Part shown: positions 16,046 through 57,688 of the stretch, piece by piece | Layout of the letters: the number at the start of each line of letters is the position of its first letter | How positions within the stretch are numbered: position 1 is the first letter of the stretch | From: a virus | Length of the DNA: 63,489 nucleotides | Strand: one strand, 5' to 3' | IMG/VR virus record: IMGVR_UViG_3300050029_000088 | Span: 1 to 63,489 of that record | The notes under the pieces: model-generated | The model's database searches: none | Told to the model about the DNA's origin: nothing | The model's input: the letters and a program-made list of their open reading frames with translations, nothing else | Position numbers and translations under genes: made by a program

Positions 16046-20115
<4,070 letters not shown>

Positions 20116-33178: not shown

Positions 33179-34213
33179 ATGAACGATGACATCGCCGGGC
33201 AGACGCCCGAGGAGGACGAGCTTCTCAAGGCAGCCGAGGAGCTTGGGATCGACCTGAGCCCGAAGGACGGCAACCTCGACGGCAACGGAGACGACCTCGG
33301 GCCGACGGGGGCTGCCGGGCCAGCAGGATCATTCGGCGCACCGGGGCCGAGCGGCAACATCGGCGCACCGGGTACTCCGGGGCCGACAGGGCCGACGAGC
33401 GCAGCCGACAATCTCGGAGCGCATCTCCTCGGTCGCGTGCCGTCCACGCCGGATGCTCGTGACTTCAAGATCGAGATGCTCCTGTCGACCGACCCGGCCG
33501 ACGTGATCCTCTCCAAGCTGCTTGCGTCGAAGTCCGTGGCGCAGGCGACGAAGGACTGGGCGGCGTTCTGGACTCCTGCCCTCAAGACCATCGGGGGCAA
33601 GCCGATTCCGCCGCCGACGCCCTCGGGGAGCAAGCTGTGGGCCGACGCCGAGGTCGTGCTCGATCAGGGGCAGACCCCGCACTGCGGCGGCTTCGGGGGC
33701 TGCCAGTTCGGGAACACCGATCCGGTGGACGACAAGTACGGCAACCCGGACGGCGAGAAGCTCTACTACGAAGCGAAGGTCATCGACGGCGAGCCCAATC
33801 AGGAGAACGGCACGTCCGTTCGCTCGGTCGTGCAGGCGCTCGTCAACCGAGGCCGAGTCGGAACGTACGCCTTCTCGACCAACATCGAGACGCTCAAGAA
33901 GTTCGTTCTTACGAACGGCCCGATCATGGTCGGCTCGGATTGGCTCGACGGCATGTTCACTCCCGACGCCAACGGGTACGTTGTGCCGACCGGCAACGTC
34001 GCGGGTGGGCACTTCTACTTGCTCCGGGGATTCCTCCCCGCGATCCCGAGCCCGCAGGGCGTGCCCTTCGTCGTGAAGGAGGACACGTTCGCCTTCCTCA
34101 ACTCGTGGGGGCCGAACTGGGCCGCGAGCGGCTACTTCTACATGACCGTCAAGGACTTCGCCTCGGTCTTCGCCAACGGCGGCGAAGCGTGCGCGGCGGT
34201 CGAGCTTCCGTAG
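33179..34213 (+). CDS. Papain-like cysteine protease with collagen-like segment
   Basis: 344 residues with an AAGGAGG ribosome site. Residues about 40-72 are Gly-x-y triplets (GPTGAAGPAG, GAPGTPGPTG). The protease domain has a QTPHCGGFGG active-site Cys region (about 165-174), GGHFYLLRGF with the His (about 279) and FLNSWGPNW with the Asn (about 306), the C1A papain triad order. Probably secreted or virion-attached and acting on host surface proteins. Followed by a strong terminator. Confidence 0.8.
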   Translation: MNDDIAGQTPEEDELLKAAEELGIDLSPKDGNLDGNGDDLGPTGAAGPAGSFGAPGPSGNIGAPGTPGPTGPTSAADNLGAHLLGRVPSTPDARDFKIEMLLSTDPADVILSKLLASKSVAQATKDWAAFWTPALKTIGGKPIPPPTPSGSKLWADAEVVLDQGQTPHCGGFGGCQFGNTDPVDDKYGNPDGEKLYYEAKVIDGEPNQENGTSVRSVVQALVNRGRVGTYAFSTNIETLKKFVLTNGPIMVGSDWLDGMFTPDANGYVVPTGNVAGGHFYLLRGFLPAIPSPQGVPFVVKEDTFAFLNSWGPNWAASGYFYMTVKDFASVFANGGEACAAVELP

Positions 34214-34270: not shown

Positions 34271-34345
34271 TGTTGCCTCTGAGTGTTCGGTACTGTCCCT
34301 TGTTGACTCTAGGCCGGAATACCTCCTTTGTCTCGGGGTCACAAG

Positions 34346-34425
34346 TGGAGACGGGCGGACTCGAACCGCCGTCCGGCGCAGTCCCGCGTGCGGGCTTTCT
34401 GGCCGTCGATACCTGTCTCGTCCCC
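34346..34425 (-). ncRNA. tRNA-sized tmRNA-like RNA (mini-tmRNA)
   Basis: On the minus strand the RNA begins GGGGACG and ends CGUCUCCA, a 7-bp acceptor with a G3-U pair as in tmRNA/tRNA-Ala. Positions 11-23 (CAGGUAUCGACGG) align base for base with the tmRNA 5' domain of E. coli ssrA (C11, G13-G14, UCGACGG). The T-arm is GGCGG-UUCGAGU-CCGCC. Between them are only about 30 nt (a GGCCAG/CUGcGCC stem capped by CCCG-CACG-CGGG) in place of the usual ~300-nt message/pseudoknot body. CCA is not encoded. Transcription should begin at G1. Confidence 0.65.
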
Positions 34426-34431
34426 GTGGGT

Positions 34432-34437
34432 AGTCTA
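34432..34437 (-). promoter_or_regulatory. Class II promoter for the mini-tmRNA, TAGACT
   Basis: TAGACT on the minus strand, 6 nt (ACCCAC) before the GGGG 5' end at 34425. Confidence 0.65.
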
Positions 34438-34450
34438 GCGCGGGCTAGCC

Positions 34451-34530
34451 GTCCGAGCCGCCGGGACTCCAACCCGGCGCAGACACGCACCTGCCCGCAA
34501 GCACGCGCTGCTCTGTCCGTTGACCCGGAC
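34451..34530 (-). ncRNA. Degenerate tRNA-like structure
   Basis: GTCCGGG/CTCGGAC could form an acceptor, TCAACGGACAGAGCA resembles a D-arm, and CCGGG-TTGGAGT-CCCGG resembles a T-arm with C56 changed to G. No convincing anticodon arm. Probably the 3' domain of the neighbouring giant RNA or a decayed tRNA. Confidence 0.3.
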
Positions 34531-34538
34531 GACCAATC

Positions 34539-34624
34539 CTCCCGCGCGACCGGCCCGACGAGGCGAGAGCGGCCATCGGCCGTATGCAGCCCCGCTACTG
34601 AGCGGGCGTTCGGTCACGCGGAAA
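34539..34624. repeat. RNA module copy 1
   Basis: Plus-strand CTCCCGCGCGACCGGCCCG, a variable hairpin, then CGCTACTGAG, GGGCG, CGGTCACGCGGAAA. The outer parts form a GCGACCG/CGGTC-type helix. Shares 18 of 19 leading bases with copy 2. Confidence 0.65.
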
Positions 34625-34696
34625 CTCCCGAGCGACCGGCCCGTGAGCACTGCCCTTGTGCGGGCTCGCTACTGTGGGCGCTCGGTCGCACGGAAA
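34625..34696. repeat. RNA module copy 2
   Basis: CTCCCGAGCGACCGGCCCG, a different hairpin, then CGCTACTGTG, GGGCG, CGGTCGCACGGAAA. Conserved ends with changed interiors indicate a repeated RNA domain. Confidence 0.65.
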
Positions 34697-36155
34697 ACGT
34701 GGGTCGCGTCGAGGGGAGGGACGGAGCCTTGAGCGGCTCCGGCAGCCGTTAGTCTGCGAAGGGGGCGCGGCGTGTACCTCAACGATCCGGGCATAGCCCA
34801 GGCAGTCGTTGGCCCAACCCTCCTAGAACACGCCAAGTTCGTCTTCTCGGCGCGACCGTGCTCAAGATGTATCCCCCGGTGGGGCGCTTGGTCGACTGCG
34901 ATCAGGCGTCTTACGTCGAGCCTACCGGGGGACGGGGCGCGGCGCTCACCCCGGCTCGCGGCGACCAACCGCAAGGAGTACCCGAGGGAGCGCCGAACTC
35001 ACCCGCCTCACGGCCACAACCTCTTACGGAGGGGCCGCGTCTACGGCGGGCGAAGAAGAACAGGAGCCCGTAACACTCAGAGAGGGATACGTGATGGCGG
35101 AACCGACTCGGTTGCGGAACGTCTGACGACGCACGCAAGCGGCCAGCACGCCCTTCGGCATGGCCCTTCATGTAGTGCGCAGGGTGGCGGCGAGCTTTCT
35201 CCGGCGTCCCGGTTCGTGACGCTCGCAGGCAGCCTGCTTGGGCTCCTGATTCGGGGACGGCGGAGGGGGCGGCATCGTTCCAACGGCTTGCCCTCTCTTA
35301 CCTCACGACTAGACCGTCCATACAGCCGGGCGTTGAGCTTTCTTCCCCGGCCTAAACTTGGTGGAAGCTCGGCTTGAAGCAGAGCACGTACTCTAAGAAG
35401 CACCGCGACCGAAGTCCGGTTTGTGAGCAGCCGAAGCCGAAGCCCCTTTGCCTGAGTTGCGTGCCCGGCAAGAACGCAGGGGATCGAACCCGCCGAGCGG
35501 ACGGTTTCTGCCCCGCCACCCTGTAGCCCGAAAGTCTCTGCTTCAAGCCGAGATTTTTCGAGACGCTCGATGAAGCGGACGGTCGCGCCGTCGCCGTCGC
35601 CTACCCTCCCCGGATCGTTGCAACTCCCCGGATACTCTCGGCTCAAGCTCGGACGTGTTACCGCTTCACTCGCCTTACCGTTCACTCTCCACGCACCTTC
35701 ATTCAGGGATCGATCGGTTGTCCGCGCGAGCTTCGCGCTCGTTCTCCGAGTCGTGGTCGTTAGCCGTCAGGGTGGTTTCGCAGAGCTACTTGCGACGGTG
35801 CCTCACGAGCGGACGGCACCGTGGCAAAAATCACGGGACATCAAGCGCACCCTGACTGGGAGCCAGAGCACGAATACCGGCGGGGCCGAGAAGCACCGTC
35901 CGCTTGCGAAGGGCGACAAGCCAAACCCGCACACGTCACGCGACGACGGCGCTCGAATGGGAAGTCTCCAATCTCCCCCACGAAGAACCAAGCCGCCGCG
36001 CGGCCCGCGCAAGCGCGAGCACCGTCGGAACGGTCGCTCTCTCCGAGAGAGAGGGAAGAACCGCCCGGAACCCGAGTGTCCGACGCCTGGCGGTGGCGGC
36101 GAGGGGAGGGGAGAGGGAGAGAGGCCCGACTCGACAACCCCTTGCTTGCACTCTT

Positions 36156-57615: not shown

Positions 57616-57688
57616 GACGGTCACGTAGCTCAGATAGGTAGAGCGCCGGGGCACCGGAGGTCGCGGGTTCGAGTCCCGCCGGGGCGTC
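57616..57688 (+). ncRNA. tRNA-like RNA lacking a normal anticodon loop
   Basis: The D-arm (GCTCAGATAGGTAGAGC) and T-arm (GCGGG-TTCGAGT-CCCGC) are perfect, but the anticodon arm is CCGG-GGCA-CCGG, a 4-bp stem with a 4-nt loop, about five bases too short. The ends GACGGTC and GGGCGTC pair imperfectly. A promoter places +1 at the first base. Either a decayed tRNA or a functional tRNA mimic. Confidence 0.62.

Follow-up and report, generated by a model that had tools for sequence, protein, structure and literature searches.

The minus strand of the window, that is, the whole 63,489-base IMG/VR virus record analysed here, carries at positions 34425-34346 an 80-nt complete tRNA-like domain (TLD) of tmRNA, from which the message domain is absent. 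Judged from the sequences, such TLD-only tmRNAs prove to be a large family in many phages that has been overlooked so far, and the family probably blocks host ribosome rescue. A message-less phage tmRNA is already known from mycobacteriophage DS6A, and the novelty appears to lie in scale; the family's breadth, the strictness of its G3-U pair and its shared hairpin cap appear to be undescribed in searchable papers.

Anatomy and expression signals of the RNA

The Rfam tmRNA model RF00023 matches positions 34425-34343 with 57.7 bits (E 5.6e-20; cut-off 47 bits) and is covered from model position 1 to 374, with only 24 nt of the RNA standing in for 316 model positions. An earlier note, made from the letters of the window, had described an 80-nt minus-strand RNA with a tmRNA-like 5′ domain, a G3-U acceptor pair and a T-arm, in short tmRNA ends with no message domain, and had proposed a covariance search; the coordinates, the pairing and the match to RF00023 all bear this description out. 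The RNA begins at G1 (34425) and ends at the discriminator A (34346), the CCA being unencoded. Its order is GGGGACG AGACAGGTA TCGAC GGCCAG AAAG CCCG CACG CGGG A CTGCGCC GGAC, followed by GGCGG TTCGAGT CCGCC CGTCTCC A.

The acceptor 5′ strand GGGGACG (34425-34419, G3 at 34423) pairs at 7/7 positions with the 3′ strand CGTCTCC, including G3-U70; this strand and the discriminator occupy 34353-34346, with U70 at 34349. Next comes a linker without a D-stem that leads into the tmRNA D-loop (AGACAGGTA-TCGAC, 34418-34405), the motif of which is invariant in aligned relatives. The place of the message domain is taken by a P2 stem, CGGCCAG / CTG-C-GCCG (34405-34374), which in the minimum free energy fold forms seven pairs with a bulged C and encloses an A-rich internal loop (AAAG/A) and a 4-pair hairpin, CCCG(CACG)CGGG. 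This hairpin, CCCGCACGCGGG, includes the CCGCAYGCGG motif that is a signature of the family. The insert of about 30 nt is thus folded as one capped stem and pseudoknots are absent; within the 24 nt that replace the 316 model positions of RF00023, no resume codon, tag frame or stop codon is found. The conserved GGAC (34374-34371), whose first G is paired in P2, connects P2 to the T-arm GGCGG-TTCGAGT-CCGCC (34370-34354), in which the stem is paired at 5/5 positions. BLAST alignments to unrelated phage relatives extend in several cases from 34425 to ~34344, covering the RNA and excluding its flanks. The folding energy is ordinary (z -0.74), as is usual for tRNAs, and the case therefore rests on homology and covariation rather than on stability.

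Other identities of this sequence were rejected. ARAGORN reports a tmRNA at 34345-34740 with the tag ASPHKGSAHGPVAREFPRDRTPAQ, but this call falsely pairs the true 3′ end with a distant, unrelated upstream GGAGCC, and the tag read from it is implausible. A better fit to an ordinary tRNA, which the earlier note had named as a finding that would speak against its reading, was not seen, since ARAGORN calls no tRNA at the RNA and tmRNA is the top match within the Rfam clan. A permuted, two-piece tmRNA is rejected because the 5′ and 3′ halves stand in normal order on one RNA; with a cut-off of 47, the permuted model RF04321 reaches only 14.4 bits.

The expression signals claimed for the RNA, its own promoter and a strong terminator, stand in part. 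An intrinsic terminator with a 13-pair stem is present on the minus strand at 34270-34241, possibly shared with the convergent plus-strand gene that ends at 34213. The promoter is weak: a -10 candidate, TAGACT (34437-34432, minus strand), lies 6 nt before G1, but it is a bare fit to TANNNT with no -35, and no sigma-70 promoter match was found near 34425 on the minus strand. At the same spacing TANNNT occurs in 10 of 123 relatives versus 4-10 at other spacings, which is no enrichment. TAGACT could, from its sequence, serve as an actinobacterial -10. Shortly 3′ of the RNA, the minus strand also contains a perfect Shine-Dalgarno-like sequence, AAAGGAGGT (34329-34321), which no usual start codon follows at an appropriate spacing.

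Relatives and their distribution

No match was obtained with an exact pattern built from the bases of the window, and the family was recovered with relaxed patterns. The D-loop TCGACGG combined with the 3′ half GGACG-GGTTCGA occurs in 12 IMG/VR contigs, which together with the window yield 10 distinct complete RNAs, every one of them with a 7/7 acceptor and G3-U. A relaxed pattern, which fixes U70 and leaves G3 free, found 66 stretches in IMG/VR and 51 distinct loci including the window. The acceptor is paired at 7/7 positions in 41 of these loci, where re-dealt 3′ strands average 8.9 and reach at most 16, and G3-U is present in all 41; A3-U70, an equally good pair, was never seen among them.

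Covariation is found in the stems. P2 was counted in 37 distinct members outside a lineage embedded in coding sequence (described below), none of them selected by P2; pairs 1-5 are standard in 37, 37, 34, 34 and 30 members, with many pair types, whereas the shuffled means are 37.0, 30.9, 17.9, 15.8 and 17.0. The first pair is invariant and hence uninformative. T-stem pairs covary in relatives as well. As variable linkers led MAFFT to misplace the acceptor 5′ strand, the pair counts were taken from anchored segments.

A hairpin pattern required the inner CCGCAYGCGG and the 3′ half, and left the acceptor 5′ strand, position 70 and TCGAC all free. It recovered 72 distinct sequences, with a complete T-stem in 71, and these 71 without exception show a 7/7 acceptor, G3-U70, G1-C72, G2-C71 and A73; TCGAC lies nearby in 66 of them. 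The acceptor 5′ strand was chosen as the best of ~34 offsets, so that a lone 7/7 acceptor may be due to chance, but not all 71 with GGG. The CCGCAYGCGG motif also occurs in 20 of the 72 members found through neither the hairpin pattern nor the coding-embedded lineage. Pooled over all scans, under a definition that does not demand G3-U but in which P2 must begin pairing, there are 126 distinct relatives, almost all viral, and G3-U is present in 126/126. The homologues in other phages that the earlier note had suggested looking for therefore exist in number.

In the coding-embedded lineage (L042, L045, L060, L061, L071, L074, L086 and related contigs), a TLD-like sequence of 74-92 nt that has G3-U occupies the 3′ end of an ORF of ~510 aa, possibly a portal gene. 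Within this lineage P2 and the T-stem differ at few positions, and these changes are compensatory and synonymous. Excision of the RNA would leave that mRNA non-stop.

The family is viral. IMG/VR has 41 distinct 7/7 G3-U members; when 84,980 genomes of bacteria and archaea were scanned with the same relaxed pattern, 106 matches could be evaluated and no more than three proved to be true members. One comes from a Cellulosimicrobium locus that includes a tRNA array, one from a Mycobacterium MAG and one from a planctomycete. Most matches in the genome collection lack the short-TLD fold, and many look like the ends of full-length tmRNAs; these matches were set aside. Clear members are carried by the cultured Streptomyces phages pSt2308, LuckySocke, GiJojo, BRock and Shaeky, and a member in Streptomyces phage Alone3 scores below the cut-off. 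These Streptomyces phage copies have no tmRNA annotation, that of GiJojo lying under a hypothetical protein, and they are usually flanked by tRNA-Val and tRNA-Ser genes. A tRNA gene is found within 1.5 kb in 35 of the 126 loci, and three or more in 17. No SmpB gene was found in 27 carrier records, this record included, and host SmpB would thus have to serve. An RF00023 search of 27 carrier records found a full-length tmRNA only in Streptomyces phage Riptide, where an intact one is annotated with the tag ANSKFAFALAA (L342, 363-629). Riptide also has a decayed TLD-like copy (L202, ~1471-1550) that keeps G3-U and the hairpin and has lost TCGAC and GGAC; the pair is a possible case of natural loss of the short form.

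The viral record and neighbouring elements

The record has no terminal repeats. Its proteins include a capsid protein of the Phage_capsid family, collagen-like tail fibres, a primase-like protein, a protein with sigma-70 region 2 and glycosyltransferases, and the weak phage protein matches among those checked included Arthrobacter and Streptomyces phages. These matches, together with a noncoding element shared with Mycobacterium phages, make an actinobacterial host plausible on sequence grounds.

The shared element is a conserved noncoding sequence on the minus strand with a core at 35807-35584 (CTGACGGCTAACGACCACGA, then CCTGAAYGAAGG ... CGGGGAG), and it lies within a stretch of ~1.9 kb without convincing genes. 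It recurs in 23 IMG/VR contigs and in 190 records of mycobacteriophages of the cluster C type, Dandelion among them; neither these contigs nor the cluster C mycobacteriophages have a tmRNA-like element near it. No Rfam family matches it, and its identification as GOLLD or ROOL was rejected; it looks like an undescribed large phage RNA. The view that the TLD is merely the 3′ end of a long upstream noncoding RNA was also rejected, as none of the other loci examined contains both. Directly upstream of the TLD, the minus-strand segment 34545-34440 folds strongly (-63.9 kcal/mol) into a three-way junction that includes a tRNA-like acceptor, GTCCGGG/CTCGGAC, and a hairpin resembling a T-arm, GCCGGGTTGGAGTCCCGGC; no convincing relatives of this junction were found.

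Two further loci of the record were noted. A plus-strand tRNA-like sequence at 57619-57687 (RF00005, 40.4 bits) receives no ARAGORN call and stands head to head with a tRNA-Gln at 57598-57528; its anticodon arm is shortened and its acceptor contains two mismatches. The 692 aa protein encoded at 16046-18124 on the plus strand matches, over residues ~415-550, PHROG families named RNA ligase, DNA methyltransferase and head maturation protease, and similar Arthrobacter phage genes bear the conflicting names aldolase, RNA ligase and capsid maturation protease. By its sequence, this region is probably a single shared domain that has been misnamed.

Proposed function and comparison with known tmRNAs

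We favour, with reasonable though not high confidence, the reading that the RNA is a phage tmRNA reduced to its TLD, of the DS6A type, which is charged and inhibits the host tmRNA. The phage RNA would be processed like a tRNA and given CCA, and G3-U70 would mark it for charging with alanine. It would then be bound by SmpB and EF-Tu, which could deliver it to stalled ribosomes. Lacking a resume codon, a tag and a stop codon, such an RNA could not finish trans-translation and would compete with host tmRNA for SmpB, EF-Tu and the stalled ribosomes, so that tagging and ribosome rescue would fall while the phage infects. Charging, SmpB binding and inhibition of host tmRNA are inferred from what a DS6A-like molecule did in a published experiment. 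G3-U70 is the alanine-identity pair, and its invariance in 126/126 relatives argues that alanylation is under selection; selection of this kind is unneeded by pure titration of SmpB, which favours a charged competitor on the ribosome over a passive sponge. The competition with host tmRNA that had been proposed for this locus agrees with published work, in which a DS6A-like molecule, charged or not, is reported to inhibit tmRNA strongly in Escherichia coli (PMC4131195; PMC11915505).

The main rival to a charged competitor is tagless rescue, which we consider improbable but worth keeping in mind. Here the charged RNA, with host SmpB, would enter stalled ribosomes, take over the nascent chain and aid release or recycling without adding a degradation tag, so that phage translation would be kept running and phage proteins spared. 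The retention of G3-U in 126/126, by which charging seems important, suits this explanation too, and mitochondrial tmRNAs without a reading frame, which are conserved with SmpB, have been proposed to act in a similar way (PMC11915505). These message-less mitochondrial RNAs, thought to be helpful, would imply an effect opposite in sign to that of an inhibitory competitor. However, the DS6A-like TLD is reported to have been inhibitory in E. coli (PMC4131195), and no known step frees the ribosome after transfer to a message-less RNA.

Somewhat less probable still is a passive sponge, in which the binding of SmpB (or EF-Tu or alanyl-tRNA synthetase) alone matters and nothing happens on the ribosome. 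The inhibition by the DS6A-like molecule was independent of charging, and SmpB titration was suggested as perhaps explaining it (PMC4131195). Pure titration nevertheless leaves the never-lost G3-U unaccounted for, since inhibition is reported also with a TLD that could not be charged and A3-U70 would pair as well.

That the RNA is a relic, left from a full tmRNA or from integration into host ssrA, is very unlikely. The gene ssrA frequently serves as an integration site, and Riptide carries its decayed copy beside a full tmRNA; yet both ends and the new capped P2 are kept with compensatory changes in many phages, searches of this record turned up neither a tyrosine nor a large serine integrase, and in large phages such as BRock and pSt2308, where no integrase was detected, copies lie within tRNA arrays. 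The alternative of a relic, raised earlier for this locus, thus fares poorly against compensated stems and an invariant G3-U in more than 100 distinct copies. Least credible of all is a split tmRNA with its coding piece elsewhere in the phage: two-piece tmRNAs are known in other lineages, but here both TLD halves lie on one RNA, P2 is closed by a hairpin and so offers no open end for a coding piece, and no second tmRNA (RF00023) and no other tmRNA or permuted-tmRNA match above chance was found in the whole record.

A charged competitor, which we prefer, gives no account of the conserved hairpin cap. Tentatively, and with less confidence than in the preferred reading itself, the large and mostly unannotated family might comprise an alanylated ribosome factor that opposes rescue (or performs it without a tag), whose A-rich loop and CCGCAYGCGG hairpin form a second functional element with a binding partner new to tmRNA. 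More than 100 distinct members, nearly all viral, would turn a curiosity into a widespread phage strategy against ribosome rescue, which is also a drug target. The strict retention of G3-U predicts that charging matters, and since the carriers include cultured Streptomyces phages (BRock, LuckySocke, GiJojo, pSt2308 and Shaeky), deletion and expression tests are feasible now.

Among known systems, the closest is the tmRNA of DS6A, described as a TLD only or little more (PMC4131195; PMC11915505). Judged from that published description, it resembles the window RNA in being phage-borne, in consisting of approximately the TLD alone, in lacking a tag frame and in matching tmRNA rather than tRNA; the window phage differs in further features, e.g. 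the conserved noncoding RNA upstream. A 2025 database of 97,179 tmRNAs lists only nine as "standard, no CDS" in all life and names one from a phage (PMC11915505). Standard tmRNA (ssrA, RF00023), with which the full-length tmRNAs that Bxz1-like mycobacteriophages and Streptomyces phages carry are grouped, shares the G3-U acceptor, the TCGAC D-loop without a D-stem, GGAC, the T-arm and the start of P2, whereas in the window RNA the message domain, tag, stop codon and pseudoknots are missing and a short hairpin closes P2. The CDS-less tmRNAs of mitochondria and of Mallomonadaceae plastids (RF02544; PMC11915505) likewise have no reading frame, those of the plastids being ~65 nt long, and the mitochondrial ones, conserved along with SmpB, are thought to help when mRNAs are incomplete. 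Mitochondrial tmRNAs, however, are permuted as a rule and their SmpB partner is cellular, whereas the phage TLD-only RNAs are one-piece and viral.
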